Of a stretch of DNA of 64,000 nt, positions 3,937 through 47,401 are shown piece by piece (the first letter of the stretch is position 1; each line of letters begins with the position of its first letter). The position numbers were made by a program, and so were the translations under genes. Below the pieces are notes generated by a model that was given only the letters and a program-made list of their open reading frames with translations, did not search any database and was not told the origin of the DNA. Source of the DNA: Micromonospora globbae (GTDB lineage: Bacteria; Actinomycetota; Actinomycetes; Mycobacteriales; Micromonosporaceae); assembly GCF_003610785.1 (NCBI RefSeq), contig NZ_RAQQ01000008.1, positions 124,001 through 188,000 of the forward strand. The letters are read 5' to 3'.

Positions 3937-4920
3937 TCAGGCCTCCTCGAGCAGTTCCAGCACGGCCCGTTCGGCCTTCTCCCGCGGGGTGTCCCCGTCG
4001 ACCGGCACCACCACGCCGTCGTGGTAGAGGTCGACCACCCGGGGGTCCACGTAGGACGTGCGCGCCACGGTCGGCGTGTTCCCCAGCAGTTCGGCGACCT
4101 CGCGCATCACGGCGGCCACCGCCCGTTTCCGGGCCGTGGCCGACCGGGCGGGCCCCACGGCGGCCAGCTCGACGGCGGCCCGCACGGTGGCGTGCCAGGT
4201 GCGAAAGTCCTTCGCGGTCATCTCCCCGCCGCTGGCGTCGCGCAGGTACTCGTTGACCTCGTCGGCGCGCACGTCCCGCCAGTCCCGGCCGTCCCAGTAG
4301 CCGAACAGCCGCTCGGCCCGGCGGCGGCGCCGGCGCAGGTTGAGCAGCACCCGGCACAGCTCGGGGTCCTCGATCCGGCGCACCTGCTCGATGCCGCCCT
4401 TGGCGGGGAACTCGAACACCACGCAGCCGCCGCGGGAGCGGGCGTGCTCGGGGCGCAGCGTGGACACCCCGAACGTCGGGTCGTCGCCGGCCGCGTACTG
4501 GTCGCTGCCGACCCGGAACATGCCCATGTCCAGCAGCCGGGCGACCGTGGCGAGCACCCGGTCCCGGTTCAGCCCGCGCCCGCCGAGGTCCGCGCCGACC
4601 CGCTCGCGCAGGGCCGGCAACCGCCGGGCCACCTCCAGCACGTGGTCGAACTTCGCCTCGTCGCGCTTCTCCCGCCACACCGGGTGGTAGAGGTACTGCT
4701 TGCGGCCGGCCGCGTCGATCCCGGTGGCCTGGATGTGCCCGTTCGGGTACGGGCAGATCCACACGTCCCGCCACGCGGGCGGGATGACCAGCGCGCGGAG
4801 GCGGTCCAGTTCGTCCGGGTCGCGCACCGGTTCGCCGGCCGGGTCCAGGAAGAGCCAGCCCTTGCCACGCCGGCGACGCCGGTATCCCGGCCTGCCCGGA
4901 TCGCTACGCCGCAACCGCAC
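3937..4920 (-). CDS. DNA topoisomerase IB
   Basis: Poxvirus-like type IB topoisomerase that relaxes supercoils through a 3'-phosphotyrosyl intermediate. The 327 residues match bacterial forms. Opening VRLRRSDPGRPGYRRRRRGKG is the family's usual N-terminus, which is why GTG 4920 is chosen over an in-frame ATG at 4977. Further marks: PPAWRDVWICP and GHIQATGIDAAGRKQYLYH in the N-terminal half; in the catalytic half GKGG-like FPAKGGIEQ, MTAKDFRTWHAT and the C-terminal TSYVDPRVVDLYHDG, whose YVDP tyrosine is the expected nucleophile. Its start overlaps the end of the glycosyltransferase gene by 17 nt, so it is the last gene of the heptose operon, an odd place for a topoisomerase. Confidence 0.93.
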   Translation of the reverse strand: MRLRRSDPGRPGYRRRRRGKGWLFLDPAGEPVRDPDELDRLRALVIPPAWRDVWICPYPNGHIQATGIDAAGRKQYLYHPVWREKRDEAKFDHVLEVARRLPALRERVGADLGGRGLNRDRVLATVARLLDMGMFRVGSDQYAAGDDPTFGVSTLRPEHARSRGGCVVFEFPAKGGIEQVRRIEDPELCRVLLNLRRRRRRAERLFGYWDGRDWRDVRADEVNEYLRDASGGEMTAKDFRTWHATVRAAVELAAVGPARSATARKRAVAAVMREVAELLGNTPTVARTSYVDPRVVDLYHDGVVVPVDGDTPREKAERAVLELLEEA

Positions 4921-5857
4921 CGGAGTCCCGCACCACCCGTTCCACCTCGTCCACGGCCGCCGACACCTCGTCGACACCGAGAGCGGTCAATGACGGGTGG
5001 CTTCCTACCCCGTCCCAGCTGGGCCAATCCCTGTTCCCGGCCCAGATCACACGGTGCCGGGGCCGGTCCGGCGGCGGCCCCCAGCGGGCCGGGGACACCG
5101 GGCCGAACAGCACGACCGACGGCCTCCCGTAGCCGGTCGCCAGGTGGGCCACGCCCGTGTCCCCGCTCACCACCACCCGGGCGTACGCCACGAGCGCCGC
5201 CAGCTCGGCGAGGCCCGTCCGGCCGGCCCACACGGCCTCGGGGGGCAGGCCGGCGGCGGAGGCCACCCCGCCCGCCAGCTCCCGCTCGTCGGCGGAGCCG
5301 GTCAGCACCACCCGGTGTCCCCGCGCGGCGAGCCGGCGCGCCAGCACGGCGAACCGGTCGGCCGGCCAGCGCTTCGCGGCGATCTTCGACCCCGGGTGCA
5401 GGACGGTGGCCCCGGTCGGCACCCCGGTCGCCGCCGGCCGGCCCAGCGCCAGGTCGGTTCGGTCGGCGGGGATCCCGTACCACGCCAGCAGGCGGCACCA
5501 GCGGTCCACCTCGTGCTCGTCGGCGTCCCAGTCCGGCCCGTCGGTGAACCCGGCGTCCGGACTGGCGAAGGCGAGCAGCCGCCCCGGCCCGGTGGCCGCG
5601 AGCGCCCGGTGCGACTGCGGGCCGCGCCCGTGCAGGTTCACCGCGAGCCGCGGCGGCGGGTGGGGCCACCGGATCCGGCCCGGATCCGGGGTGTCCACCA
5701 GCAGGTCGACCCCGCCCACCAGGTCGACCAGCGGCGCGAGCCAGGCCGGCGCGGCGAGCGCGAGCCGCCGGTCGGGGTGGGCGGCCCGCAGCGCGCGCAG
5801 CGCGGGCACGGCGGTGGCCAGGTCGCCGACACCGAGCGCCCGCAGCACGAGGATCAC
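4904..5857 (-). CDS. Glycosyltransferase family 9 (heptosyltransferase-like)
   Basis: Transfers a heptose from ADP-heptose to a glycan acceptor on the cytoplasmic side; 317 residues. N-terminal half ILVLRALGVGDLATAVPALR is the GT9 acceptor-side motif, and the C-terminal half has LHPGSKIAAKRWPADRFAVL and VVSGDTGVAHLATGYGRPSV, the nucleotide-sugar motif (D-T-G-x-x-H). The GTG start at 5857 overlaps the upstream TGA by 4 nt (GTGA), so it is co-translated with the SDR gene. Its place in an operon with GmhA, HldE and GmhB supports ADP-heptose as donor. The acceptor is unknown; there is no lipid A here. Confidence 0.88.
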   Translation of the reverse strand: MILVLRALGVGDLATAVPALRALRAAHPDRRLALAAPAWLAPLVDLVGGVDLLVDTPDPGRIRWPHPPPRLAVNLHGRGPQSHRALAATGPGRLLAFASPDAGFTDGPDWDADEHEVDRWCRLLAWYGIPADRTDLALGRPAATGVPTGATVLHPGSKIAAKRWPADRFAVLARRLAARGHRVVLTGSADERELAGGVASAAGLPPEAVWAGRTGLAELAALVAYARVVVSGDTGVAHLATGYGRPSVVLFGPVSPARWGPPPDRPRHRVIWAGNRDWPSWDGVGSHPSLTALGVDEVSAAVDEVERVVRDSGAVAA

Positions 5858-6552
5858 GGGTACGACGACTCCTGCTCGGCGCAGACCACCATCTCCCGTA
5901 CGGCGCAGCCGGGCGGCTGGGACAGCGCGTACATGACGGCCGCCGCCGTGTCGGCCGGGTCGTTGAGCACCGCGTCCGCCCCGGGGCGGTAGCGCTCGTC
6001 CCGTTCGTCGAAGAACGCCGTCCGCATGCCGCCGGGGATGAGCAGGGTCACGCCCACCGTGCCGGCGAGTTCGGCGGCGAGGGCCCGGGTGAAGCCGACC
6101 ACCCCGAACTTCGCGGCGCAGTACGCGGTGGCGTCGCTCACGGCCTTGACGCCGAGCGTGGACGCCACGGTGACGATCGTGCCCCGGGACGCCTCCAGGT
6201 AGGGCAGCGCGGCCCGGATCACCGCGGCCGTGGCGAGCAGGTCGACGGCGACGATCCGCTCCCAGGTGTCCGCCGGCACGTCCGCCAGCCGCCCCGGGAC
6301 GTCCATCCCGGCCGCCGTCACCACCGCGTCCAGGCCGCCGGAGCGCTCGGCGAGCTGCCGTGTGGCGTCCTCGGCGGCCCGGGTGTCGGCCAGGTCGCAC
6401 TCCACCCACGGCACCCCGTCGCCGGGGGCCCGCCGGTCGATCACGAGCGGCCGGCCGCCGGAGCGGGCCACCGCGGCGACCACGGCCGCGCCCAGCCCGC
6501 TCGACCCGCCCGTCACCAGGACGGCGGATCCGCTCGGCACGCCGGCGGTCAT
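5854..6552 (-). CDS. Short-chain dehydrogenase/reductase in the heptose operon
   Basis: Classical SDR of 232 residues: TGGSSGLG cofactor motif near residue 15, NAG-equivalent TAAG, and YCAAK catalytic Tyr/Lys at about 145. Start ATG 6552 overlaps the HldE stop by 4 nt (ATGA), and its own stop overlaps the GT9 start. It is too short and of the wrong subgroup for HldD, the extended-SDR ADP-heptose 6-epimerase, so it may oxidise or reduce a heptose intermediate or a different sugar. Family is certain, substrate unknown. Confidence 0.87.
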   Translation of the reverse strand: MTAGVPSGSAVLVTGGSSGLGAAVVAAVARSGGRPLVIDRRAPGDGVPWVECDLADTRAAEDATRQLAERSGGLDAVVTAAGMDVPGRLADVPADTWERIVAVDLLATAAVIRAALPYLEASRGTIVTVASTLGVKAVSDATAYCAAKFGVVGFTRALAAELAGTVGVTLLIPGGMRTAFFDERDERYRPGADAVLNDPADTAAAVMYALSQPPGCAVREMVVCAEQESSYP

Positions 6553-8051
6553 CGGATCCGCTCCACGTCCGGCGCCGACGCGCCGACGGGACCGTCGCCG
6601 GGCGCCCGCGCGGCCTCGCAGCACGCCCCGGAGAGCTGGCCGCCGGACCGCGCGGCGGCGATCATGTCCGTCGTCGAGCGGCCGTCGAGGTACGGCACCA
6701 CCACGGTGTGCCCGCCCCACCGCCGCAGGATCTCCGCCTCGGGCAGGGCCGAGGCGTCCCCGGCGCCGGTGGCGTAGTCGCCGCCCTTCACCCAGATGTC
6801 CGGGCGCAGCCAGGTCAGCGCCGCGTGCGGCGTCGGCTCGTCGAAGATCATCACCGCGTCCACGCAGCTCAGCGCCGCCAGCAGCCGGCTGCGGTCGCCC
6901 TGCGGGACCACCGGGCGGTCCGGCCCCTTCAGCCCGGCCACGCTGGCGTCGGAGTTCAGGCAGACGATGAGGCAGTCGCCCAGCTTCCGGGCCGCCTGCA
7001 ACGTCGCCACGTGACCGGCGTGCAGCAGGTCGAAGCAGCCGCCGGTGGCCACCACCGTGCCGCCGGCCGCGCGCACCTGGGCGAGCACCGACGCCACGGC
7101 GGCCACGCCGACCCGCTCGCCGCCGGGCGCGGCCACCGCGCTCACCTCCGGCCGCGCCGGAGGCGGCAGCACGCTCGCCACTCCCCCGCCCGCCACGTAC
7201 GCCGACGCCTCGGCCACCGCCTCCTGCACCGCCTCGGAGACCAGCGCGCCCCGGGCCAGGGCGAGGCTCGCGGTGGCCGCGAACCGGTCACCGGCGCCAC
7301 AGGTGTCCCCCTCGGCGGTGGCCGGTGACGGCACCACCAGCGGTGTCGACCCGGCGTGGCAGAGCAGCGCCCCGTCGCCGCCGAGGGTCACGGCCACCGC
7401 GCCGGCCCGCCACCGCCGGCGCAGCCCCTGGGCGCCCCGCGACGCGGTGGCCAGCCGGGTCGCGCCCGGCAGCGCCGGCACCAGCTCGCGGACCTCGGAC
7501 TCGTTGGGCGTGGCCAGATGCACGCCGGGAACGGCAGCCGGACCGCGTGGGTGCGGGTCCCACACCACCGGCGCCCGGGTCGCGGCGAGCGCCGCCCGCA
7601 GCGCCGACTTCCGGGCCACACCGCGGCCGTAGTCGCTGACGAGGACGGCGGACGCGTTCGCGATCATCCGGAGCATCGCCTCGGTCGGTTCGCCGGGCTC
7701 CCCGGGCGGGCCGCCGCGGTCGTGCCGCAGCAGGACGCGTCCGCGGGCCCGCAGCCGGATCTTCTCCGGCGTGGCCCCGGCCAGCGGCAGCGCGTACACC
7801 TGCACGCCGGCGGCGGCGAGCAGGGCGCTCAGCCGCGCGCCCCCGGCGTCGTCCGCGAGCGCCGTCACCAGCACCACCTCGGCGCCCTGTGCGGCGGCGA
7901 AGACGGCGGCCAGGCCGGCGCCGCCGGGGCGGTCGACGTACTCGGTCTCGTCGAGCACCGGCACCGGAGAGTCCGGACAGAGCCGGTTGACCACCCCCTC
8001 CACGTCCCGGTCGAGCAGGGTGTCACCGACCACCACCACGGGTCCCGTCAC
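6549..8051 (-). CDS. hldE: HldE: heptose-7-phosphate kinase / heptose-1-phosphate adenylyltransferase
   Basis: Bifunctional enzyme of ADP-D-glycero-beta-D-manno-heptose synthesis, 500 residues against about 480 in E. coli. Residues 1-320 are a PfkB-type sugar kinase: VVVGDTLLDRDVEG, the glycine-rich PGGAGLAAVFAA, and the catalytic GDTCGAGDRFAATASLALA. Residues ~340-475 are the nucleotidyltransferase: GGCFDLLHAGHVATLQAARK (HxGH), CLNSDASVAGLKG, and KGGDY. GTG 8051 has AGGAGGGG before it; an ATG at 8066 overlapping the GmhA stop is the alternative. It phosphorylates C1 and then adenylylates the product of the GmhA and GmhB steps. A full-length HldE in a Gram-positive is uncommon; it is firm here. 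Confidence 0.95.
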   Translation of the reverse strand: MTGPVVVVGDTLLDRDVEGVVNRLCPDSPVPVLDETEYVDRPGGAGLAAVFAAAQGAEVVLVTALADDAGGARLSALLAAAGVQVYALPLAGATPEKIRLRARGRVLLRHDRGGPPGEPGEPTEAMLRMIANASAVLVSDYGRGVARKSALRAALAATRAPVVWDPHPRGPAAVPGVHLATPNESEVRELVPALPGATRLATASRGAQGLRRRWRAGAVAVTLGGDGALLCHAGSTPLVVPSPATAEGDTCGAGDRFAATASLALARGALVSEAVQEAVAEASAYVAGGGVASVLPPPARPEVSAVAAPGGERVGVAAVASVLAQVRAAGGTVVATGGCFDLLHAGHVATLQAARKLGDCLIVCLNSDASVAGLKGPDRPVVPQGDRSRLLAALSCVDAVMIFDEPTPHAALTWLRPDIWVKGGDYATGAGDASALPEAEILRRWGGHTVVVPYLDGRSTTDMIAAARSGGQLSGACCEAARAPGDGPVGASAPDVERIR

Positions 8052-8062
8052 GCTTCCCCTCC

Positions 8063-8740
8063 TCATCCTCGGGCCTGCACCTGTTTCCCGCTGTCGCCGT
8101 CGAGTACCACCTCCACCCCGGCGTGCACACCGTCGGAGCGGAGCGGCTCCGACACGTCCGCCGACGCGGCCAGCGCGGCCGGCAGCGCCCGGTCGACGTA
8201 CTCGCAGAGCACGTGCGCCGAGACGAGGTGCAGTTCCTGCACCACCTGGCTGTCCGGCGAGGCGATGGCGAGCGCCTCGTGGCAGGCGTCGGCGAGGGGG
8301 TTGGGTGCGGGGCCGGTGAAGGCCCAGCAGCGCAGGCCGGTGTCGTGGGCGGCCTGGGCGGCGGTGAGGAGGTTGGGGCTGGTGCCGCTGGTGGACAGGA
8401 GCAGGAGGATGTCGCCGGGTCGGCCGTGGGCGCGGACCTGGCGGGCGAAGACGTGGTCGTAGTCGTAGTCGTTGGCGATGGCGGTGAGGGCGGAGGTTTC
8501 GGCGTGCAGGGCGATGGCGGACAGGGGTTGGCGGTCGTCGCGGAGTTTGCCGACGAGTTCGGCGGTGAGGTGTTGGGCTTCGGCGGCGCTGCCGCCGTTG
8601 CCGGCGACGAGCAGCCGACCACCGGCCGCCAGCCGCCTCGCGAGGGTCTCACCCCACCGGGCGAGCAGGTGCTCGCACTCCCGGTACGGCAGCAGGGCCG
8701 CGGCCAGGTTCGCCAGGTGCGCGTCGAGCAGCCCCGCCAT
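8063..8740 (-). CDS. gmhA: GmhA: sedoheptulose-7-phosphate isomerase
   Basis: SIS-domain isomerase, 225 residues, converting sedoheptulose 7-phosphate to D-glycero-D-manno-heptose 7-phosphate, the first committed step. Key marks: GNGGSAAEAQHLTAELVGKL, nearly the textbook GmhA motif; the SIS phosphate loop LLLSTSGTSPN; and the late helix with HLVSAHVLCEYVD. The protein continues ~25 residues past the usual end. Its ATG at 8740 shares one base with the TGA of the upstream transferase, so the operon is tight. Codons in 8310-8600 are strongly C-ending compared with adjacent stretches. Confidence 0.93.
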   Translation of the reverse strand: MAGLLDAHLANLAAALLPYRECEHLLARWGETLARRLAAGGRLLVAGNGGSAAEAQHLTAELVGKLRDDRQPLSAIALHAETSALTAIANDYDYDHVFARQVRAHGRPGDILLLLSTSGTSPNLLTAAQAAHDTGLRCWAFTGPAPNPLADACHEALAIASPDSQVVQELHLVSAHVLCEYVDRALPAALAASADVSEPLRSDGVHAGVEVVLDGDSGKQVQARG

Positions 8741-9957
8741 CAGGCCACCACCCGCGTCGGCCGGCGCGCCGCGGTCACCTCGCCGTAGACCTCCACCAGC
8801 CGCTCCGCGGTCGCCGCCCAGGAGTACCGCAGCCGGGCCCGTTCCTGCGCCGCCGTGGCGTACGCGAAACGGCGGATCCGGTCGTCGAGCAGGCCCTGGA
8901 TCGCGGCGCCGAGCGCCCGCGGGTCCCGGGCCGGGACCAGGTCGCCGGTCACACCGTCGACGACCGTGTCCTTGATCCCGCCGACCGCGGTGCCGATCAC
9001 CGGCACGCCGCAGGCCATCGCCTCCAGCGGGGTCAGCCCGAACGGTTCGTACCAGGGGGCCGCCACCAGGACGTCCGCGGACCGGTACCAGCGGCCCATC
9101 TCCTCGCGCGGCACCGCGCCGACCAGGCGGACCCGGTCGGCCACCCCGCACGTCCTCGCGAGCGCCCGCAGCCGCTGGGCGTACGGGTCGGTCTCCAGCA
9201 GTCCGGCGGGCGGGCCGCCCACCACCACGCACTCGGCGTCGGGCACCAGCGCCATCGCCCGGATCACCGTCTGGAAGCCCTTGCGTTCCACCAGCCGGCC
9301 GACGGTCAGGACGCGCGCCCGCCCGGGCTCGCGGTCGGCGGCCGGCCCGAGCGGGGCGAAGGTGCTGAGGTTGACCCCGGAGGGGACCACGGTCATCCGG
9401 GACCGGGGCACACCCATCCGGACCAGCTCGCCGACCTCGTCCTGGCACTGCGCGATCACGCGGTCCACGGACCGGCCCAGCTCCCGCTCGTACGCCACCC
9501 GGCGGGCCGGGCTGGTGTCCTGCACGCCCTGGTACCGCCGCTTCACCGTGCCGAGCGCGTGGTACGTCTGCACCACGGGGATCCCGGTCTGCCGGCTCGC
9601 GGCGAGCGCGGCGAGGCCGCTCATCCAGAAGTGCGCGTGGACCACCTCGGGCACCCAGTCCCCGCCCCGCCACCGCTCGACGAGCCAGCGGCTGAACTCC
9701 TTCATGTGCGGTAGCAGCGCGTCCTTCGCCACCGGCTCCGCCGGCCCGGCCGGCACGTGCACCACGTCGTACCCGTCCGGGCTGCGCACGGTGACCGGCA
9801 GGTCCACGGCGTCGCGCCGGGTGTAGACCCGTACGTCGTGGCCGGCGGCCGCGAGGGCGGCGGAGAGCTCCGCGACATGCGTGTTCTGGCCGCCGGCGTC
9901 CTCACCGCCGAGGATGGCGAGCGGGCTGGCGTGCTCCGAGATCATCGCGATGCGCAT
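8740..9957 (-). CDS. Glycosyltransferase family 4 (GT-B)
   Basis: Retaining glycosyltransferase of 405 residues. It opens MRIAMISEHASPLAILGG with GGQNTHVAELSAALAAAGHD, as in sucrose-synthase/MshA-like GT4 enzymes. The donor domain has VGRLVERKGFQTVIRAM and the E-x7-E motif in EPFGLTPLEAMACGVPVI. Its 3' end touches gmhA and its 5' end overlaps the next transferase by 16 nt. In this operon it probably extends a heptose-containing glycan, but GT4 donors are diverse, so the sugar is not known. Confidence 0.9.
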   Translation of the reverse strand: MRIAMISEHASPLAILGGEDAGGQNTHVAELSAALAAAGHDVRVYTRRDAVDLPVTVRSPDGYDVVHVPAGPAEPVAKDALLPHMKEFSRWLVERWRGGDWVPEVVHAHFWMSGLAALAASRQTGIPVVQTYHALGTVKRRYQGVQDTSPARRVAYERELGRSVDRVIAQCQDEVGELVRMGVPRSRMTVVPSGVNLSTFAPLGPAADREPGRARVLTVGRLVERKGFQTVIRAMALVPDAECVVVGGPPAGLLETDPYAQRLRALARTCGVADRVRLVGAVPREEMGRWYRSADVLVAAPWYEPFGLTPLEAMACGVPVIGTAVGGIKDTVVDGVTGDLVPARDPRALGAAIQGLLDDRIRRFAYATAAQERARLRYSWAATAERLVEVYGEVTAARRPTRVVA

Positions 9958-10919
9958 ACTTCCTCCTCCAGCAGCCGGTCCCAGTCGGCGAGGAAACGGT
10001 CGAGGCCGTACCGGTCACGGGCGGCCGTCCGGGCCACCGCGCCGGCCTGCCGCGCGAGTTCCGGTTCGGCGATGAACCGCTCGGCGGCGTCCAACAGGGT
10101 CTGCGTCCGGGTGGCGAGGGCGCCCGCCCCCGGCGGTACGGCCATCACCGCCTCGGTGGTGGCGAGCGCGACGACCGGCATGCCGATCGCCATGGCCTCG
10201 ATGAGGCTGAGGCCGAGGGAGGTCCAGCGGCACAGGTGCAGGTACGCCCGCCGCCGGGCCAGTTCCTCGTGCATGCGGGCCTGCGGCACGTCGTCGTGGC
10301 TGACCACCCGTTCGGGCGGGAGCCCGAGCGCGTCGGCGAGGCCGGCCACCTTCATCCCGAAGACGTCCAGCGGGGCGATTTCGGCGAACCGGGGCAGCAG
10401 GTCGGTGCCGGTGACACGCCAGCGGCGTACCGGCTCGTTGATGACCACGGCGAGCCGGTCCAGTTCGCCGCTGTAGTCGACCCGGGGTGGCACGATGCCG
10501 TGGTCGACGACGGTGGTGCGGGTCGATCCGGTGTCCCAGAACAGCTGGTTGAAGCCGGTGACGTGGGCGATGAGCAGGTCGTCGCGGTCGGCCATGGGGT
10601 GGCGGCTGTTGGGGACGTTGCCGTCCTTGGGGGTGTTGTGTTCGACGTAGATGGCGGGCAGGTCGTGGCCGGGTCGGCGGCGTAGCCACTGTTGGGCGAG
10701 GTCGAGTTCTTCGGGGCGTTGGAGGATGACGAGGTCGACGTCGGTGTGGGGGAGCTGGTCGGGGGTGATTTCGGTGACGGTGTCGGGCCAGGGGTAGGTG
10801 CGGGCGCGGCCGAGGCCGTAGGGGCCGCGGTCGGGGGTGACGGGGACGAGGTAGTGGTGTCGGCCGTGGACGAACGCGGTGGTCCAGGAGCCGTGCACGT
10901 GCCACAGCAGGATGTTCAT
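9942..10919 (-). CDS. Glycosyltransferase, GT4-like
   Basis: 325 residues, opening MNILLWHVHGSWTTAFVHG. The C-terminal half has the GT4 donor-site pattern: SLGLSLIEAMAIGMPVVALA and a closing helix LDRFLADWDRLLEEEV. The N-terminal half (VEHNTPKDGNVPN, HVTGFNQLFWD) is less typical. The ATG at 10919 overlaps the stop of the GmhB-GT9 gene. 10600-10880 uses C-ending codons almost exclusively. It is a second non-GT9 transferase of the heptose operon; donor and acceptor are unknown. Confidence 0.85.
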   Translation of the reverse strand: MNILLWHVHGSWTTAFVHGRHHYLVPVTPDRGPYGLGRARTYPWPDTVTEITPDQLPHTDVDLVILQRPEELDLAQQWLRRRPGHDLPAIYVEHNTPKDGNVPNSRHPMADRDDLLIAHVTGFNQLFWDTGSTRTTVVDHGIVPPRVDYSGELDRLAVVINEPVRRWRVTGTDLLPRFAEIAPLDVFGMKVAGLADALGLPPERVVSHDDVPQARMHEELARRRAYLHLCRWTSLGLSLIEAMAIGMPVVALATTEAVMAVPPGAGALATRTQTLLDAAERFIAEPELARQAGAVARTAARDRYGLDRFLADWDRLLEEEVCASR

Positions 10920-12697
10920 CGGGCGCTCCCGCCCGAGGCGGTCACCGCCACGCCCGCCGTGGCCCGGTCCGGGGTCACGCCCAGCAGGCGCAACGCCGCG
11001 ACCACGTCGGCGGGCTGGATGCCGGCGAGGCAGGGGTGGCCGGGGACGGGGCAGGTGGCGGCGCGGGTGTCGCGGCAGGGGGCGGTGGGGTCGCCGAGGC
11101 GGACGGTGGGGACGCGGTAGGGGGCCCACTGGCCGAACGGGACGGTGGGGGCGAAGAGGCTCACCACGGGGGTGCCGACGGCGGCGGCCAGGTGCGCGGG
11201 CCCCGTGTTGCCCACCACCACGGCCGCCGCGTCCGCGATCACCCCGGCCAGTTCCGCCAACCCGGTACGACCCCCCAGGTCCACGCCGCCGGCACCGGCC
11301 ACGGCGGCGGTCAGCTCCCGCTCCGCCGGTGTGCCGGTCACCACGACCCGGTGCCCGGCGTCGACGAGTGCCCGTCCGATGCCGACCGCCACCTCCGGGG
11401 GGCAGGCACGGCTGGGCACCGACGAGCCGGGGTGCAGCACCACGTAGCCCGGCGGCCCGACCGGCGACGGCGGCACCGCCTCGGGTCGCAGGTGGAGGGT
11501 GGGCTCCTCGTCGGCGGGCAGCCCGTACCCGGCGGCCGCCGCCAGGGACAGGGCCCGCTCCGGCTCCGGCACACCCGGGGGCACCCGGTGCCGCACGTCC
11601 AGCAGGCTGCCCGGGTAGTCGTCGCTGATCGCCGCGACCCGCGGCACACCCGCCATGCGCAGCAGCAACGCCATCGGCAACGGCGACTGATGGAACGAGG
11701 TGAAGATGACCGCCTCGTCCGCACCCACCGCCGCCAACCGCCCGACGAGGCCGCGCATGTCAGCCGGATCCACAGGCGCCGGAACAGGATCGATCCACGG
11801 CAACGGATGCTCGATCACCTCATCCACACCCGGCAACAGATCAGCCGCCGCCCGCCCCCGCGGACCACACACCAACACCACCCGATCCGCACCCGCCGCG
11901 ACCGCCCGGACCGCCGGACCCGTCACCAACACATCCCCCACCGAATCCGCACGCACCACCACCACCGTGCCCCGCCCACCACCCGACGACACCGGCCACG
12001 GCGCCACCGCAGCCGGCGTCACCGCCGCCTGCCGCCGCAAAATCTCCTCCACCGCCGCAGGCAGATCCACCGCCGTCCACGCAGCGGCCGCCACCTCCTC
12101 CGCCCGCGTCACCACCGTCGGCACCAACACCCCCGCCGCACCCGCCGCCGCAGCCGCCACGACATCCCGACCGATGTCACCCACCACCACACACCGGGCC
12201 GGCACCGTCCCCAAATCCGCCGCCGCCGCCCACACCAACCCCGGCGCCGGCTTACGACACCCACACCCATCCGCATCCTCGTGCGGACACACCCGCCACG
12301 TACCGAACGGCCCCAACAACTGCTCAACCCGCGCATGCACCGCCGCCATCTGCGACCCGCTGAACAAACCCCGCGCCACACCCGACTGGTTCGTCACCAC
12401 CCCCAGCCGCAACCCCGCCGCCCGCAACCGATCCAACGCCGCCCGCACCCCCGGCAACGGCCGCACCTTCTCCGGATCACCGTTGAACGGCACGTCCTCC
12501 ACCAACGTCCCGTCCCGATCCAGCAACACCGCGTCGAACAGGACCGGCCCGGCCGCGGCCCGGTCAGCACCGGAACAAGCCCCGGCTGACCTGCGCTGAT
12601 CCGGCTCCACCTGGTCCTGTCGCACGGGCGGCGGGTTCCCGGCCCCCAGGGGAGTAAACGTCGTCCTCGGCGCGGCGACAGCGCCCACGCACGCCAC
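10916..12697 (-). CDS. gmhB: Fusion: GmhB-type heptose-bisphosphate phosphatase + GT9 heptosyltransferase
   Basis: Two enzymes in one 593-residue frame. Residues ~50-230 are a HAD phosphatase of the GmhB type: FDAVLLDRDGTLVEDVPF (nucleophile Asp), VVTNQSGVARGLF, the zinc-site segment CPHEDADGCGCRKPAPGL, and GDIGRD. Residues ~245-590 are a GT9 transferase: RADSVGDVLVTGPAVRAV, LHPGSSVPSRACP and VVGNTGPAHLAAAVGTPVV. It would remove the C7 phosphate before adenylylation and transfer heptose afterwards. The start is uncertain: GTG 12697 is the longest, GTG 12625 or one near 12540 would still keep the HAD domain; none has a good ribosome site. It is the first gene of the operon, 20-30 bp after a SigB-like promoter. 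Codons switch from G-ending to C-ending near 11690. Confidence 0.9.
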   Translation of the reverse strand: MACVGAVAAPRTTFTPLGAGNPPPVRQDQVEPDQRRSAGACSGADRAAAGPVLFDAVLLDRDGTLVEDVPFNGDPEKVRPLPGVRAALDRLRAAGLRLGVVTNQSGVARGLFSGSQMAAVHARVEQLLGPFGTWRVCPHEDADGCGCRKPAPGLVWAAAADLGTVPARCVVVGDIGRDVVAAAAAGAAGVLVPTVVTRAEEVAAAAWTAVDLPAAVEEILRRQAAVTPAAVAPWPVSSGGGRGTVVVVRADSVGDVLVTGPAVRAVAAGADRVVLVCGPRGRAAADLLPGVDEVIEHPLPWIDPVPAPVDPADMRGLVGRLAAVGADEAVIFTSFHQSPLPMALLLRMAGVPRVAAISDDYPGSLLDVRHRVPPGVPEPERALSLAAAAGYGLPADEEPTLHLRPEAVPPSPVGPPGYVVLHPGSSVPSRACPPEVAVGIGRALVDAGHRVVVTGTPAERELTAAVAGAGGVDLGGRTGLAELAGVIADAAAVVVGNTGPAHLAAAVGTPVVSLFAPTVPFGQWAPYRVPTVRLGDPTAPCRDTRAATCPVPGHPCLAGIQPADVVAALRLLGVTPDRATAGVAVTASGGSAR

Positions 12698-12797: not shown

Positions 12798-13244
12798 GTG
12801 GCGATTGTGGAGAAAGTGATCGACGCTCCCCCGCAGCGGGTCTTCGACGTGCTCGCCGACGGCTGGACGTACAGCGACTGGGTCGTCGGGACGGCGCACG
12901 TGCGGGACGTGGACGAGAACTGGCCCCAGGTCGGCAGCCAACTCCACCACCGGGCCGGGCCGTGGCCGTTCTCGTTGCAGGACGCCTCCACCGTGCTGCT
13001 CTGCGAGCCACCGCACCGGCTCGTCCTGCGGGCCGGCCTCTGGCCGGCCGGTGAGGCGATCGTGACGTTCACCCTCGATCCGGTGGACGGGGACGCCACC
13101 CGGGTGCGCATCGGCGAGGAGTTCGCGGCCGGCCCGCTGCGCTGGGTCCGCAACAAGCTCAACGACCTGGTACTGCACCTGCGCAACCGGGAGACCCTCA
13201 ACCGGCTCTCCGACATCGCCACCCGCCAGAAGGACCAGCGATGA
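12798..13244 (+). CDS. SRPBCC (START-like) family protein
   Basis: 148-residue helix-grip protein with the typical opening VEKVIDAPPQRVFDVLADGW and closing amphipathic helix LRNRETLNRLSDIATRQ. Such proteins hold hydrophobic ligands in a cavity; none can be named here. It has no signal peptide. Its TGA overlaps the ATG of the next gene (ATGA 13241-13244), so it is coupled to the SDR with a membrane tail. GTG 12798 is the start; the SigB-like promoter immediately upstream suggests stress control. Confidence 0.85.
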   Translation: MAIVEKVIDAPPQRVFDVLADGWTYSDWVVGTAHVRDVDENWPQVGSQLHHRAGPWPFSLQDASTVLLCEPPHRLVLRAGLWPAGEAIVTFTLDPVDGDATRVRIGEEFAAGPLRWVRNKLNDLVLHLRNRETLNRLSDIATRQKDQR

Positions 13245-14242
13245 CGCAGAGCGTGGTCGTCACCGGGGCGAGCGCGGGCGTGGGCCGCGCCGTCGCCCGC
13301 GCGTACGCCGCGCGGGGCGCCCGGGTCGCGCTGCTCGCCCGCGGCGAGGCCGGGCTGGCCGCCGCCGAACGGGACTGCCGCGAGCGGGGCGCCGCCGACG
13401 TGCGCACCTACCGGCTCGACGTGGCCGACGCCGCTGCCGTGCAGCACGCCGCGGACGACGTGGTGGCGCACTGGGGCGCGCTCGACGTCTGGGTGAACAA
13501 CGCCATGGTCTCGGTCTTCGCCCCGACCTGGGAGGTCACCCCCGCCGAGTTCCGGCGCGTCACGGAGGTGAACTACCTGGGCACCGTGCACGGCACGCTC
13601 GCGGCGCTGCGTCACATGCGCGCGAGCGGGCGGGGCGCGATCGTGCAGGTCGGCTCGGCGCTGGCGTACCGGGGCATCCCGCTGCAGGCCGCGTACTGCG
13701 CGACCAAGCACGCCATCCAGGGCTTCAACGACTCGCTGCGCGCCGAACTGCTGCACGACTGTCCGGCCGTGCGGCTGTCCATGGTGCAGCTGCCCGCCGT
13801 GAACACCCCGCAGTTCTCCTGGGTGCGCACCCGGCTGCCGCGGCACCCGCAGCCGGTGCCGCCGATCTTCACGCCCGAGCTGGCGGCCCGCGCCATCCTC
13901 TGGGCGGCCGACCGCGGGGTCCGGGAGCTGAACGTCGGCGGTCCCACCTGGCGGGCCCGTCTCGGTGACATGCTCGTGCCCGGTCTGCTGGACCGGAAAC
14001 TGGCCCGGGACGGGTACGGCAGCCAGCAGACCGGCACCCGGGTGGACCCGTCACGCTGGCGGGACAACCTCGACCGCCCACGGGACGACGAGCGGGACCA
14101 CGGCGCGGACGGGGTCTTCACCGACCAGGCGCGGAACCGGTCGGCGGCGCTGTGGGTGGGCACCCACAAGCGGGCGGTCTCCGGCCTCGCCCTCGCCGGG
14201 CTCGCCCTGGCCCTCGCCGGCGCGGCCGCCCGGCGCCTCTGA
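13241..14242 (+). CDS. Short-chain dehydrogenase with C-terminal membrane helix
   Basis: 333 residues. Residues 1-250 are a classical SDR: TGASAGVGRAVA, NNAM (in place of NNAG), the serine in VQVGSALAYRG, and YCATKHAIQGF. After a charged linker (about 260-305) comes one hydrophobic helix near the end (VSGLALAGLALALAGAAA), so the enzyme is probably tail-anchored with its active site in the cytoplasm. This SDR-plus-tail form is common in actinobacteria and its substrate is not known. It is coupled to the SRPBCC gene by a 4-nt overlap. Confidence 0.88.
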   Translation: MTQSVVVTGASAGVGRAVARAYAARGARVALLARGEAGLAAAERDCRERGAADVRTYRLDVADAAAVQHAADDVVAHWGALDVWVNNAMVSVFAPTWEVTPAEFRRVTEVNYLGTVHGTLAALRHMRASGRGAIVQVGSALAYRGIPLQAAYCATKHAIQGFNDSLRAELLHDCPAVRLSMVQLPAVNTPQFSWVRTRLPRHPQPVPPIFTPELAARAILWAADRGVRELNVGGPTWRARLGDMLVPGLLDRKLARDGYGSQQTGTRVDPSRWRDNLDRPRDDERDHGADGVFTDQARNRSAALWVGTHKRAVSGLALAGLALALAGAAARRL

Positions 14243-14278
14243 CCCGACACGGACAGCGGACAGGCACGTCGGCGCAAC

Positions 14279-14292
14279 CCTCCGATCGGAGG
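14279..14292. promoter_or_regulatory. Perfect 14-bp palindrome before the mannosyltransferase gene
   Basis: CCTCCGATCGGAGG, self-complementary without a loop, 66 bp before the next start. It could be a protein-binding site; no regulator is identified. Confidence 0.4.
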
Positions 14293-14357
14293 AGCCTTTA
14301 TGCCACCGATACGTCAACTGGCTACCCTCTGAGAGACTCCATGTCCGCAAACCGAGG

Positions 14358-15134
14358 ATGTCCGTCATGATCGAACCCGTGCAGTTGCCCGCGCCGTGGC
14401 GGGACGCACGCCTGACCGTCGTGGTGCCTACCTACAACGAGGCGGGGAACCTGCCGGTCCTGGTCGAGCGGCTCCTCGCCCTGCCGCTGCCGGGCCTGCG
14501 CGTGCTCGTCGCCGACGACAACTCGCCCGACGGCACCGGTGAGGTGGCGGACAAGCTGGCCATCGAGCACCCCGACCGGATCGAGGTGGTGCACCGGCCG
14601 GGCAAGGAGGGTCTCGGCCGGGCGTACGTGGACGGGATGGGACGGGCCCTGGACGGGGGCGCCGACTACGTGGCGCAGATGGACGCCGACCTCTCGCACC
14701 CGCCGGAGGCGCTGCCGGGCATGCTCGGGGCGCTCCTGTCGACGCAGGCCGGCGTGGTGATCGGCTCCCGGTACGTGCCCGGTGGCGAACTCGACGAGAA
14801 CTGGCCACTGTACCGGCGCGCGCTCAGCGGCTGGGCGAACCTCTACGTGCACACCCTGCTGCGCGTCCGCATCCGCGACCTCACGGCCGGCTTCAAGATC
14901 TGGCGGGCCGACGCGCTGCGCGACATCGGCCTCGAGCGGGTGCAGTCCAACGGCTACAGCTTCCAGGTCGAGATGCACTACCTCGCCACGAAGCTCGGGC
15001 ACACCATCCTGGAGGTGCCGATCCGCTTCGAGGAACGCCGCGAGGGCGCCTCGAAGATGACGACCGCCACCAAGATCGAGAGCGCGCTCATGCCGTTCAA
15101 GCTGCGCAGCAAGCACCGCAACATCACCCGCTGA
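14358..15134 (+). CDS. Polyprenol monophosphomannose synthase (GT2, Ppm1/DPM1 type)
   Basis: Makes polyprenyl-phosphate-mannose from GDP-mannose at the cytoplasmic face, the lipid-linked donor for lipoglycans and protein O-mannosylation. 258 residues of the soluble catalytic domain, with VVVPTYNEAGNLPVLVERLL, VADDNSPDGTGEVAD, the metal-binding QMDADLSHPPEAL and GSRYVPGG, and the late FEERREGASKM typical of DPM1. There is no Lnt-like or membrane domain, so the partner must be separate. Start ATG 14358 (MSVMIEP) or 14367; the second has GAGG at a better distance. It stands alone between the SDR gene and a tandem repeat. Confidence 0.93.
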   Translation: MSVMIEPVQLPAPWRDARLTVVVPTYNEAGNLPVLVERLLALPLPGLRVLVADDNSPDGTGEVADKLAIEHPDRIEVVHRPGKEGLGRAYVDGMGRALDGGADYVAQMDADLSHPPEALPGMLGALLSTQAGVVIGSRYVPGGELDENWPLYRRALSGWANLYVHTLLRVRIRDLTAGFKIWRADALRDIGLERVQSNGYSFQVEMHYLATKLGHTILEVPIRFEERREGASKMTTATKIESALMPFKLRSKHRNITR

Positions 15135-15190
15135 GCCCGGCCGTCGTCCGGCGCCCCCAGTCGGACGCGGCCCAGCCGGGCTTCCGCCGC

Positions 15191-15260
15191 CGCACGCCAC
15201 CCCACGCCGCCGCACGCCACCCCACGCCGCCGCACGCCACCCCACGCCGCCGCACGCCGG
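15191..15260. repeat. Tandem 20-bp repeat, about 3.5 copies
   Basis: CGCACGCCACCCCACGCCGC repeated exactly at 15191, 15211 and 15231, with a half copy after. It lies between convergent genes ending at 15134 and 15297. There is no spacer diversity, so it is not a CRISPR. Confidence 0.9.
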
Positions 15261-15296
15261 AGCCGCCGGCCGGCGGGGACGTGCCGGCGGCGCGGG

Positions 15297-16901
15297 TCAG
15301 CGGTACACGGCGCGCTGGGCCGCGCCCACGGCGGCCGCGTACACGCCGCCGGTGAACGCGCGGTCGCGGGCCAGCGCGGCGCGGGCCGCGTTCGCGCCGG
15401 GCGCGCCGTGCACTCCCCCGCCGGGATGCGCGGACGCGCTGGCCAGGTACAGCCGGTCCACCGGCGTGTCCGCCCGACCGAGGCCGGGAATCGGGCGCAG
15501 GAAGAGCTGCTGGTACGCCGCCGACGTGCCGCCGCCCACCGCGCCACCGACCAGGTTCGCGTCGCCCTTCTCCAGCTCGACCGGGCCGGCCACGTGCCGG
15601 CCGACGATGAGGCCGCGGAAGCCCGGCGCGGCCTCCTCCAGCACCCGTTCCATCCGCTCGACGTGCTGGGCGATCTCGTCCGCCCGCCAGTCCCGCCGGA
15701 ACGGCAGGTGGGTGTACGACCAGAGGGACTCGGTGCCGGGCGGCGAGTGGCTCGGATCGGCGACGGTCATCTGCCCCACCAGCAGGAACGGGTCCTCCGG
15801 CAGCTCGCCGCGGGCCAGCGCGGCCGAGTAGCTGGTGAGCCCGTTCAGGTCGGCGCGCAGGTGCACCGTGCCGGCGGTGGCGAGGGCCCGGTTCGTCCAC
15901 GGGACGGGCGCGGAGAGCGCCCAGTCGACCTTGAGCGTCGAGCCGTCCCAGCGGAAGTGCGCCAGGTCCTCCACGAGGCGGGGTGGCAGTGCCGCCGGGC
16001 CGACCAGGTCGAGGTAGAGCGCCGGGGCCGGCACGTCGGCGAGCACGGCACGACGGGCCCGCCACAGCGCGCCGCCCACGGTGCGGACCCCCATGGCCCG
16101 GCCCCGCGCGGTCAGCACCCGGTCCACACGCGCGCCGTAGAGGATCCGGCCGCCCCGCTCGGTGAGCCGGGCCACCAGCGCGTCGGTGATCCGTTGCGAG
16201 CCGCCCTCCGGCACCGGCCACCCGACCTGCTGGCCGAGCATGGTCAGCAGCCAGCCGTACACCCCGGAGCCGGCCTCCTCCGGGGACAGGTCGGTGTGCA
16301 GGGCGCAGCCCGCCAGCAGCGCGGGCCCGCCCTCGCCGTCGAAGAGTTCGTCGGTGAGCTTGCGGACGGGCACCACCAGCCGCCGGGCCAGCCGCAGCGC
16401 GCCGGAGATCCGCATCCGGCGGAGCAGGGTGAGGCCGCCGCGTACCGGCGGGAACGGAGAGGTGATCGTCTCCAGCATCGGCTCGGCGACCTCGGTCCAG
16501 TCGCCGTACGCCGTCAGCCAGCGTTTGCCGTCGCCGGGCGCGAACGCGTCCAGCGACGCGGCCGTGACCTCGGGATCCCGGTTGAGCACGGCGGCGCGGC
16601 CGTCGGGCAGCAGGTGGGCCAGCACGTCGGGGGCGTGGCGCCAGGTGAGCCCGTACCGGCCGAGGTCGAGCCGGCGCAGCACCGGCGAGGCGTACGCCAG
16701 GGGGTAGAACGAGCTGTAGAGGTCGCTCAGGTAGCCGGGTGCCGTGACCTCGGCGGAGCGGACGGCGCCGCCGGGCGTGGCGCTCGCCTCCAGCACCACC
16801 ACCTCCCAGCCGGCGTCCGCGAGCATGTTGGCGGCCACCAGACCGTTGTGGCCGGCCCCGACGACGACGGCGTCCGCGCTCTCCGCGCCGGTGGGAGTCA
16901 T
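15297..16901 (-). CDS. FAD-dependent phytoene-desaturase-like oxidoreductase
   Basis: 534-residue flavoprotein. N-terminal dinucleotide fold DAVVVGAGHNGLVAANMLADAG with the trailing EASATPGGAVRS, and the C-terminal FAD motif near LYLASASAHPGGGVHGAPGANAARAA, match the CrtI-related NAD(P)/FAD oxidoreductase family (PYROXD2-like), common in actinobacteria outside carotenoid clusters. No carotenoid genes are near, so carotenoid desaturation is not implied. The start ATG at 16901 lies 9 nt after a SigB-like -10. It is divergent from the aldehyde dehydrogenase; the substrate is unknown. Confidence 0.88.
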   Translation of the reverse strand: MTPTGAESADAVVVGAGHNGLVAANMLADAGWEVVVLEASATPGGAVRSAEVTAPGYLSDLYSSFYPLAYASPVLRRLDLGRYGLTWRHAPDVLAHLLPDGRAAVLNRDPEVTAASLDAFAPGDGKRWLTAYGDWTEVAEPMLETITSPFPPVRGGLTLLRRMRISGALRLARRLVVPVRKLTDELFDGEGGPALLAGCALHTDLSPEEAGSGVYGWLLTMLGQQVGWPVPEGGSQRITDALVARLTERGGRILYGARVDRVLTARGRAMGVRTVGGALWRARRAVLADVPAPALYLDLVGPAALPPRLVEDLAHFRWDGSTLKVDWALSAPVPWTNRALATAGTVHLRADLNGLTSYSAALARGELPEDPFLLVGQMTVADPSHSPPGTESLWSYTHLPFRRDWRADEIAQHVERMERVLEEAAPGFRGLIVGRHVAGPVELEKGDANLVGGAVGGGTSAAYQQLFLRPIPGLGRADTPVDRLYLASASAHPGGGVHGAPGANAARAALARDRAFTGGVYAAAVGAAQRAVYR

Positions 16902-34582: not shown

Positions 34583-34962
34583 GGCGCCTCCATCTCCGAC
34601 GACCACGTCACCGACGCTACGGCTGGTCCCATGTACGGGACAAGGACGGATTGGTGACAGGTACGGCTTGTCTGTCGGGTTCGCATCGGCCGCTCGGTGG
34701 AGCGCGGCGGCCGTCCGGTCGGCGGCCGGGGGATGTCCGGGTGACCCGGCGGGACCGGAAGAACCGACCGTAACGGCCCTCACAACCGCGCCGGGGATGG
34801 TCGATTTGCGACCGTTAACGGCGGTTAAATCACATAAGTACATCGTCCGTTCGGCTAGATTTTCTCCGGACGATCGGGTTAGGGTGACTTCCGAACGGCC
34901 CATTGGAAGCTAGCCAAAGCGTCACGTCTATATCCGCGGACGAGGTGCAGGGAGGACCACCC
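34583..34962. promoter_or_regulatory. Long regulatory gap before the sigma factor gene
   Basis: 380 bp between divergent genes. It has GTCCC-N6-GGGAC (34626-34641), the palindrome CCGTTAACGG (34812-34821), a local AT-rich island (34822-34866) with TAGATT (34856) as a candidate -10, and a second candidate TAGGGT (34880). Several promoters would fit a stress sigma gene. No reading frame with good coding bias is seen. Confidence 0.5.
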
Positions 34963-35790
34963 ATGACCGCGCCAGCGATCAGCGAACAGACGACGAGCAC
35001 CACGCCCGACACCGCGGGGAAGCTCGACCCGCGGGCCCTCGCCGACAGCGCCACCGATCTGCTCAACGCGATGGCCGCGCTGCCGGCCAACCATCCGTCG
35101 CGACCCGCGCTGCGCGACAAGGCGATCGAGGCCTGGCTGCCGCTCGCCAACCACCTCGCCCACCGCTACAGCGGCCGGGGCGAGCCCACCGACGACCTGG
35201 CGCAGACCGCCGCCGTCGGCCTCATCAAGGCCATCGACAAGTTCGACCCGTCGCGCGGCGTCGACTTCGCCGGCTACGCCATCCCCACCATCATCGGCGA
35301 GCTGAAGCGGCACTTCCGCGACCGCACCTGGGACATCCGGGTGCCGCGCCGCCTCCAGGAACTGCGCCTGGCGATCTCCGACGCCAACAGCTCGCTGCTG
35401 CAGACCCTCGGCCGCTCGCCGACGGTCGCCGACATCGCCGCCCACCTCAAGATCACCGAGGAGGAGGTCCTGGAGGGCCTGGAAGGCGCCCGCGCCTACA
35501 ACGCGGTTTCGCTCTCCACCCCCACCGGCGACGGCGACCGGGCCACCGAGCTGGGCGACATGCTCGGCGGCGAGGACGGCGAGTTCGAGCTCGCCGAGCT
35601 GCGGGTCGCCCTCGGCCCGGCGTTGGCCACCCTCGACGAGCGCGAGCAGAAGATCCTCACCCTGCGGTTCTACGGCAACCTGACGCAGTCCCAGATCGCC
35701 GAGCAGATCGGCGTCTCGCAGATGCACGTCTCCCGGCTGCTGGCCCGGGCGCTGACGAAGCTGCGCGGGCAGCTCGACGGCACCTACTGA
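34963..35790 (+). CDS. Alternative RNA polymerase sigma factor, SigB/SigF/SigG type
   Basis: 275 residues with sigma regions 2, 3 and 4. Region 2: WLPLANHLAHRYSGRGEPTD, DLAQTAAVGLIKAIDKFDPS, RGVDFAGYAIPTIIGELKRH, RDRTWDIRVPRRLQEL (the SigB-group signature). Region 3: LGRSPTVADIAAHLKITEEE. Region 4: LDEREQKILTLRFYGNLTQS and IGVSQMHVSRLLARALTKLR. It directs polymerase to GTTT/GGGTA promoters in this group. ATG 34963 with GGGAGG upstream is preferred over ATG 34903. No anti-sigma gene is adjacent; the SpoIIE-HATPase protein at 25 kb may belong to its control circuit. The likely targets in this window are listed under its promoter motif. Confidence 0.95.
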   Translation: MTAPAISEQTTSTTPDTAGKLDPRALADSATDLLNAMAALPANHPSRPALRDKAIEAWLPLANHLAHRYSGRGEPTDDLAQTAAVGLIKAIDKFDPSRGVDFAGYAIPTIIGELKRHFRDRTWDIRVPRRLQELRLAISDANSSLLQTLGRSPTVADIAAHLKITEEEVLEGLEGARAYNAVSLSTPTGDGDRATELGDMLGGEDGEFELAELRVALGPALATLDEREQKILTLRFYGNLTQSQIAEQIGVSQMHVSRLLARALTKLRGQLDGTY

Positions 35791-47077: not shown

Positions 47078-47341
47078 TCACTCGAACAGCGAGTGCCGTG
47101 CGCCCGGCTCCTCGCGACGGCGGGCGGCGCGGCGGCGCTGGATGATGACCAGGTCGACGACGGCGACCACCGCGAAGAACGCGCAGACCGCGCCCAGCCA
47201 CGCCAGGTCCGCCAGGAACGCCAGCACCGCGAAGATCGCCATGATCACAAGGCCGAAGCCGGCGAGCGCGAGCCGGAGGTTCAGCGCGCTGTAGGCGTGC
47301 CCGACCGTGCCGCGGGCACGCCGGGGCTGCGATCTCGTCAT
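47078..47341 (-). CDS. Small two-helix membrane protein
   Basis: 87 residues: basic start TRSQPRRARGTVGHAYSALN, helix 1 (LRLALAGFGLVIMAIFAVLA), helix 2 (LGAVCAFFAVVAVVDLVII), and a strongly basic end RRRAARRREEPGARHSLFE. The C-terminus would be cytoplasmic. It resembles the DUF6343-type actinobacterial membrane proteins in general layout, but I cannot confirm this. ATG 47341 lies 9 nt from GGGTAG, so the mRNA is leaderless or nearly so. The dehydrogenase gene follows 12 nt later. Confidence 0.8.
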   Translation of the reverse strand: MTRSQPRRARGTVGHAYSALNLRLALAGFGLVIMAIFAVLAFLADLAWLGAVCAFFAVVAVVDLVIIQRRRAARRREEPGARHSLFE

Positions 47342-47350
47342 TCCCCCGAC

Positions 47351-47375
47351 CTACCCCGCGACGGCCGGGCCTAAC
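47351..47375 (-). promoter_or_regulatory. SigB/SigF-like promoter of the membrane-protein/gabD pair
   Basis: Minus strand GTTAGG (47375-47370), 13-bp spacer, GGGTAG (47356-47351), 9 nt before the ATG at 47341. Confidence 0.6.
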
Positions 47376-47401
47376 CGGTGTGGTCGACCCGTGGGGCCGG
47401 C

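Follow-up and report, generated by a model that had tools for sequence, protein, structure and literature searches.

A cwg-type operon with putative heptose genes in Micromonospora globbae and its probable second copy

The cwg operon of Streptomyces coelicolor (SCO6179-6190) holds 12 genes for "a putative cell wall glycan" (Hong et al. 2002, as cited in PMC6767563, PMC5839063, and PMC5882110). In the passages of these papers drawn on here, it is a sigma-E target, induced by vancomycin and part of the envelope stress regulon (PMC6767563); the table entry for cwgH is phosphoheptose isomerase, that for cwgI is bifunctional synthase/transferase (PMC5839063), and cwgE is termed a putative heptosyl transferase (PMC5882110). 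Here, we describe a homologue of cwg in Micromonospora globbae, on a 64,000-nucleotide (nt) stretch –referred to as the window– of its 7.09 Mb draft genome of 95 contigs (C8:124001-188000, contig NZ_RAQQ01000008.1). An earlier note on this DNA had read eight minus-strand genes with intact motifs at 3937-12697 as one unit for the synthesis and transfer of adenosine diphosphate (ADP)-heptose. All eight genes were confirmed as present, from Pfam matches and motifs. The operon is not without precedent: cwg is a homologue, and nucleoside diphosphate (NDP)-heptose in a Gram-positive is already in print, through septacidin of Streptomyces and a survey across kingdoms (available parts of PMC11461863).

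Septacidin biosynthesis thus resembles our locus in the use of NDP-heptose by a Gram-positive. It is an antibiotic pathway, and was set against the window operon by description rather than gene by gene. Activated heptose is best known from Gram-negative bacteria, whose ADP-heptose pathway (GmhA, HldE, GmhB, and WaaC/WaaF) relies on the same enzyme families as the window. In Pseudomonas, the passages at hand report a carbamoylated heptose in the lipopolysaccharide (LPS) core, with wapO (PMC8005017, PMC7168646). The exopolysaccharide clusters of Actinoplanes missouriensis were rejected as the same system, since the available part of their description carries no heptose terms (PMC13390465).

Gene content and the core shared with cwg

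The operon consists of seven minus-strand genes that extend from position 12625 or so down to 4904, with overlaps of 1-16 nt between neighbours. In order, they encode GmhB fused to a family 9 glycosyltransferase domain (GT9a), a GT4-like glycosyltransferase (GT4b), an MshA-like GT4 (GT4a), GmhA, HldE, a short-chain dehydrogenase/reductase (SDR), and a second GT9 (GT9b). The set of GmhA, HldE, and GmhB beside GT9 heptosyltransferase-like genes in an actinobacterium is therefore supported, as first noticed.

The printed cwg promoter (in the passage available, PMC6767563) has one exact match among 392 probable Streptomyces-group genomes, in genome G742, and three matches with one mismatch. An open reading frame starts 147 nt past it in G742, which is the published distance, and from the promoter match this genome is presumably S. 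coelicolor or close kin. Twelve units are recognised there, in the order epimerase, carbamoyltransferase, GT2, GmhB, GT9a, GT4b, GT4a, GmhA, HldE, GT9b, GT2, and GT2. Seven of the twelve are found in the window in the same order, with identities of 59% (GmhB), 59% (GT9a), 62% (GT4b), 56% (GT4a), 61% (GmhA), 54% (HldE), and 54% (GT9b). The window lacks the epimerase, the carbamoyltransferase, and the three GT2 genes, whereas it has the SDR and the GmhB-GT9a fusion, which matches two separate stretches in G742. No SDR counterpart was found in the G742 cwg-type operon, and the interval of ~730 nt between its HldE and GT9b gave no assignment in three-frame translation. By sequence and gene order, the window operon is a homologue of cwg that shares its core rather than the complete operon.

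The three pathway enzymes present their family domains and catalytic motifs, which are intact by eye. GmhA, the predicted sedoheptulose 7-phosphate isomerase (8063-8740, minus strand as for the whole operon), matches SIS_2 (77 bits; curated Pfam cut-off 27) and the gmhA models, contains GNGGSAAEAQHLTAE and QELH, and aligns to solved GmhA (phosphoheptose isomerase) structures (best 1.7e-39); among its relatives, each motif is kept in 111/112 gene calls. HldE (6549-8066), the predicted heptose 7-phosphate kinase / heptose 1-phosphate nucleotidyltransferase, matches PfkB (86 bits; cut-off 25.8) and CTP_transf_like (55 bits; cut-off 21), contains GAGD and FDLLHAGH, and aligns to two proteins of solved structure, a heptose 7-phosphate kinase and a putative cytidylyltransferase. 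GAGD is present in 120/120 of the related proteins, and FDxLHxGH in 119/120. GmhB, within the fusion gene (10916-12625, counted from the proposed start at GTG 12625), is a predicted haloacid dehalogenase (HAD)-IIIA heptose bisphosphate phosphatase, contains DRDGT, CPHEDADGCGCRKP, and GDIGRD, and aligns to solved heptose bisphosphate phosphatases. The codon use of the GmhB part (12002-12529, minus strand) is odd: the third position is G in 77% of codons and C in 8%, compared with 28% and 64% in GT4b.

The HldE nucleotidyltransferase motif bears on the sugar donor. An Arg at the fifth place of (F/L)xxGxSTT is reported to let heptose nucleotidyltransferases also use cytidine and uridine triphosphate, and promiscuity can arise without that Arg too (passages of PMC11461863). 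The window HldE reads YLDGRSTT, with Arg at the fifth place and Y instead of F/L at the first; this Arg is a difference from the Gram-negative pathway. Arg occupies that place in 108/120 HldE proteins (95 by script and 13 by eye), and the remaining 12 have H, Y, Q, or W. The script pattern had missed 17 proteins, of which 11 end in STS and two are without the G.

Both GT9 domains are above the Pfam cut-off (PF01075, Glyco_transf_9; 73.5 and 96.7 bits vs. 22), and neither gene reaches the NCBIfam heptosyltransferase cut-offs (best 81.9 of 134.6 bits). GT9b (4904-5857) carries K-R-W-P and GDTGVAHL, and aligned with solved WaaF and WaaC it shares the K and the D-T-G-x-x-H. In WaaC, these letters bind ADP-heptose. 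The D is kept in 94/94 pattern-matched GT9b relatives (17 unmatched), with K or R at the K place. For GT4a (8740-9957), the best NCBIfam match is the inositol phosphate glycosyltransferase MshA (TIGR03449, 247 bits, below the cut-off of 462.5); its solved relatives include Tll1590 (210 bits) and, more weakly, phosphatidylinositol mannosyltransferases (81 bits). GT4b (9942-10919) matches Glyco_trans_1_2 and Glycos_transf_1. The SDR (5854-6552) is of the classical type, with YCAAK and an adh_short match of 125 bits (cut-off 26.6), and the search for its relatives gave general SDR proteins and no particular function.

Means of hydropathy over 19 residues above about 1.6 can indicate membrane segments. 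The highest in the eight proteins range from 0.84 to 1.99, with peaks in or near domain cores. The glycan is probably made in the cytosol and exported by other proteins.

Conservation, second copy, and carbamoyltransferase

We compared 80 Micromonosporaceae loci, the best of 293 relatives in named genomes, and 38 loci of ~20 kb from other families, hand-picked for spread over families. The closest HldE relatives belong to Micromonospora (90-91% for the first two matches), and the nearest one on the HldE tree (66 of 120 proteins, quick method) is M. costi. Counting GmhB and GT9a separately, the eight units keep the same order and strand in 75/80 Micromonosporaceae loci, and the other five are interrupted by contig ends. 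This family-wide order, seen in the comparison across Micromonosporaceae that had been suggested as a check, rules out a chance arrangement. Across the class, an HldE match at 1e-60 or better was found in 93/394 sampled genomes of the class (45/137 genera). The 38 other-family loci contain matches to HldE (38), GT9a (37), GT4a (37), GT9b (37), GmhB (35), GmhA (35), GT4b (33), SDR (30), GT2c (29), carbamoyltransferase (28), and epimerase (28), in an order that is often, not always, identical. Locus L192 was rejected as an example, since only a distant HldE is found there.

The topoisomerase IB gene (3937-4914, minus strand, start uncertain; Topoisom_I 105 bits, cut-off 23.7) follows downstream of GT9b, and comes next in 70 of the 75 complete Micromonosporaceae loci. 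It was found nearby in only 4/38 other-family loci, whereas every core gene has a match in 30-38 of them, and we rejected it as a member of the system. Of the eight-gene unit first drawn, seven overlapping genes remain as the operon, with the topoisomerase just a neighbour outside the pathway.

On the other side, the upstream flank (12798-16901) encodes an SRPBCC protein, an SDR, a GT2, and a flavin adenine dinucleotide (FAD) amine-oxidase-like gene. The FAD and GT2 genes are common to most Micromonospora loci with enough flank, and neither was observed next to the loci of Actinoplanes type (L113-L120 and L123-L125).

The same genome probably holds a second copy that bears a carbamoyltransferase and is divided between two contigs. 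The end of contig C29 contains a second HldE (65% identity over 474 amino acids) together with GT4a, GmhA, SDR, GT9b, and the end of GT4b, and the end of contig C48 contains a TobZ-like carbamoyltransferase (88% to the M. mirobrigensis protein) and GT2c. In M. mirobrigensis (L121) and another genome of its genus (L195), parts of the C48 and C29 types form one gene run, so these two contig ends are probable halves of one operon. The GmhB-GT9 gene of this second set was not found in the assembly, and we propose that it lies in the gap between C48 and C29. The two top SIS_2 matches of the genome (C22 and C1) were rejected as extra GmhA, as their start sequences by eye resemble other sugar-phosphate isomerases. 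Elsewhere, on contig C5, there is a third HldE of 635 amino acids with a GT2 and a divergent GT9 (L043, 6670-10637); its surroundings showed no match to GmhA or GmhB.

Relatives of the C48 carbamoyltransferase are present in 28/38 other-family loci and 13/80 Micromonosporaceae loci. The HldE tree places 30 Micromonosporaceae rows on one side of a branch (Shimodaira-Hasegawa-like approximate likelihood ratio test, SH-aLRT, 99), and 16 window-type rows on that of another (100). In Micromonospora sp. KC606 (L076, 2784-14097), the block is followed by topoisomerase IB and preceded by carbamoyltransferase and GT2c; since this locus has all three, the window type may have lost the carbamoyltransferase and GT2c. 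The likeness to Pseudomonas, drawn from the published description, lies in the heptose genes beside a carbamoyltransferase gene in many related loci; the window operon differs in having no carbamoyltransferase of its own. In the loci that bear one, heptose may be the sugar that is carbamoylated.

Taken as a whole, the locus is real and ordinary within its family; its gene set is a variant one, its promoter type is its own, and a second copy in the genome is probable.

Promoter-like elements and the start of the first gene

Among 81 upstream regions (the 80 loci and the window), 74 could be anchored on a GmhB start preceded by 300 nt or more. Of these, 61 were aligned, and 13 from Plantactinospora, Actinoplanes-type, or second-copy loci were omitted. 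The aligned regions are strongly conserved and display two promoter-like elements on the minus strand: P2 (12636-12659, GTTTA-N14-GGGAA) in 60/61, and P1 (12727-12752, GGTTA-N16-GGGTA) in 55/61, allowing spacers of N13-16 and N14-17, respectively. In all loci and the window together (2.6 Mb, both strands, these upstream regions included), there are 62 matches to P2 and 64 to P1. A longer form of P2 is unique in the genome.

P2 ends 10 nt before GTG 12625, which is why we propose that the first gene may start there rather than at 12697. The GTG follows P2 by 10 nt in 59 regions and by 9 nt in one, in frame with GmhB in 60/60. P1 lies 29 nt before GTG 12697, a codon other than the proposed start. 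The string TTTACTCC occurs in 53/61 regions and keeps the frame to GmhB in 52 of the 53, and in 17/53 there is no in-frame upstream start within the stretch. Given these 17 and the constant frame of the GTG, a purely coding role of the P2 stretch was set aside; sequence upstream of GTG 12625 is likelier promoter, and sequence downstream coding. Moreover, the codons TTT and ACT that P2 would contain occur once each in nine window stretches, compared with 51 TTC and 169 ACC or ACG, and their rarity argues for conservation at the DNA level.

P1-type sites number 11 in the 7.09 Mb genome, and seven of them are followed by a plausible gene start at a distance of 10-39 nt. Besides P1 itself, one is 10 nt before the C48 carbamoyltransferase, and another ~1.4 kb beyond the end of the C29 genes. 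In 14/14 Micromonosporaceae loci, GGGTA precedes the carbamoyltransferase ATG by 10-12 nt, vs. 1/19 other-family loci with the start found, and 5 of the 14 have the full GGTTA...GGGTA form. Most of these 14 regions –not L116 and L118– also show by eye a string near AGAAGTC(A/G)A(T/C)GATC before the promoter-like element (L214, 7463-7522, and equivalents). We rejected the idea that the conserved leader belongs to a known RNA family (best 16.4 bits vs. a gathering score of 37), and nothing in the whole window exceeded a gathering score.

P1 and P2 resemble what we take to be the sigma-B/F promoter consensus. Two SigB/F/G genes above the NCBIfam cut-off are found in the genome, and the one within the window (34945-35790, plus strand) is a candidate reader of such promoters. 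Elsewhere in the window, a further P1-type site (47352-47376, minus strand) precedes a DUF6343 gene (47078-47341) by 10 nt, followed in turn by an aldehyde dehydrogenase gene (45650-47065), and 39471-42077 (plus strand) encodes a glycoside hydrolase family 9 (GH9) cellulase with carbohydrate-binding module domains CBM2 and CBM4_9.

Proposed product and alternatives

We consider a heptosylated envelope glycan the probable, and the most likely, product of this variant cwg operon, which supports the proposal of the earlier note. We infer the reactions, donor nucleotide, acceptor, destination, and sigma factor as follows. GmhA would convert sedoheptulose 7-phosphate to heptose 7-phosphate, the HldE kinase domain would turn it into the 1,7-bisphosphate, GmhB would remove the 7-phosphate, and the second HldE domain would add the nucleotide (ADP, possibly also cytidine or uridine diphosphate, CDP or UDP). 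The two GT4 enzymes would help to assemble a short acceptor glycan, and GT9b, perhaps also GT9a, would place D-glycero-D-manno-heptose onto it, with the SDR acting on a sugar at an unspecified step. Proteins encoded outside the operon would move the glycan to the envelope, and transcription in Micromonospora would likely start from P2 and P1 as sigma-B/F-like promoters.

Several observations weigh against this reading. No NCBIfam equivalog cut-off is reached by GmhA (152 of 209 bits), HldE (135 of 345 bits for domain I and 170 of 181.5 for domain II), or GmhB (60 of 149.6 and 114 of 178 bits). The enzymes are accordingly named at the family level, from domains, motifs, and context. Among the proteins of the GmhB and GT9a clusters, all three GmhB motifs are present in 76/126, some in 15, and none in 35, partly because the clusters include GT9a-only proteins or cut gene calls. 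The window GT9a has N and R at the D and K places of heptosyltransferases, as do its relatives (N in 86/86 pattern-matched, 27 unmatched; R where matched), and the K place of GT9b relatives is often R. The Pfam and NCBIfam matches of the operon point to no export or ligase gene. At the promoter level, neither a sigma-E-type site AAC-N15-18-CGT(C/T) nor a looser form was found in 450 nt around the window start, and GTTTA/GGTTA...GGG(A/T)A elements distinguish the window from cwg; their sigma class is our assumption, and their counts express conservation rather than a blind test, since P1 and P2 were found post hoc in the same sequences. Finally, and unlike the Gram-negative pathway, the genome has no match above the cut-off for ADP-heptose 6-epimerase (HldD; 131 of 274.6 bits at best), and therefore the L,D form is not expected. 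Together with the GRSTT arginine, this leads us to expect D,D-heptose linked to ADP, CDP, or UDP as the donor; the ADP-heptose named at first is among these and was too narrow as the only product. The second, carbamoyltransferase-bearing set lies elsewhere in the genome and was out of sight of that reading.

The scores below the equivalog cut-offs and the deviating letters of GT9a would also fit enzymes that resemble GmhA, HldE, and GmhB and use another phosphosugar. However, the three pathway enzymes stand together in conserved order with a GT9 that has heptosyltransferase letters, and nearly all relatives retain the HldE and GmhA motifs; we regard a sugar other than heptose as very unlikely. 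A small soluble or secreted heptoside, such as a specialised metabolite, is improbable, if somewhat less so. Streptomyces is known to employ NDP-heptose for septacidin (PMC11461863, as far as its available text goes), an MshA-like GT4 could use a soluble acceptor, and the missing export or ligase gene agrees with such a product. Nevertheless, the single order across the family and its recurrence in other families are unlike patchy metabolite clusters, the homologous cwg belongs to a vancomycin-induced envelope stress response (per the cited passages of PMC6767563), and the Pfam matches of eight neighbouring genes include no assembly-line enzymes.

The more serious competitor, still doubtful in our view, is that heptose is placed on a glycolipid or a protein and not on a wall polymer. 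The MshA match of GT4a, with phosphatidylinositol mannosyltransferases among its weaker solved relatives, points that way, and just four transferase domains with no polymerase suggest a short oligosaccharide. Yet GT4 similarity predicts the acceptor poorly, and an oligosaccharyltransferase was not recognised in the operon.

Returning to the heptosylated envelope glycan, a tentative and more far-reaching proposal can be made. Cwg in Micromonosporaceae may be under leaderless sigma-B/F-like promoters that replace sigma-E, and the two copies in M. globbae, one of them with a TobZ/NodU-type carbamoyltransferase, may yield two heptosylated envelope glycans, one O-carbamoylated like the Pseudomonas LPS inner core, in stress or sporulation.

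The cwg operon has featured in Streptomyces envelope-stress work since 2002, and in the cited passages its product is still just "a putative cell wall glycan". A structure for it was not found in the literature searched (open-access, mostly titles and abstracts; Hong et al. 2002 was not looked up). The operon described here is not unique, and what it adds is a lead, suggested by sequence, to heptose in the cwg-type glycan. Reading cwg as an NDP-heptose system that occurs across many families of actinomycetes, frequently next to a carbamoyltransferase, points to heptose and carbamoyl heptose as a chemical target. The remark of the earlier note on ALPK1 is a reasonable one: if the reading is true, common soil actinomycetes may also produce ALPK1-type ligands. 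The two-glycan proposal would mean that bacteria lacking an outer membrane have a chemistry like that of the LPS core.

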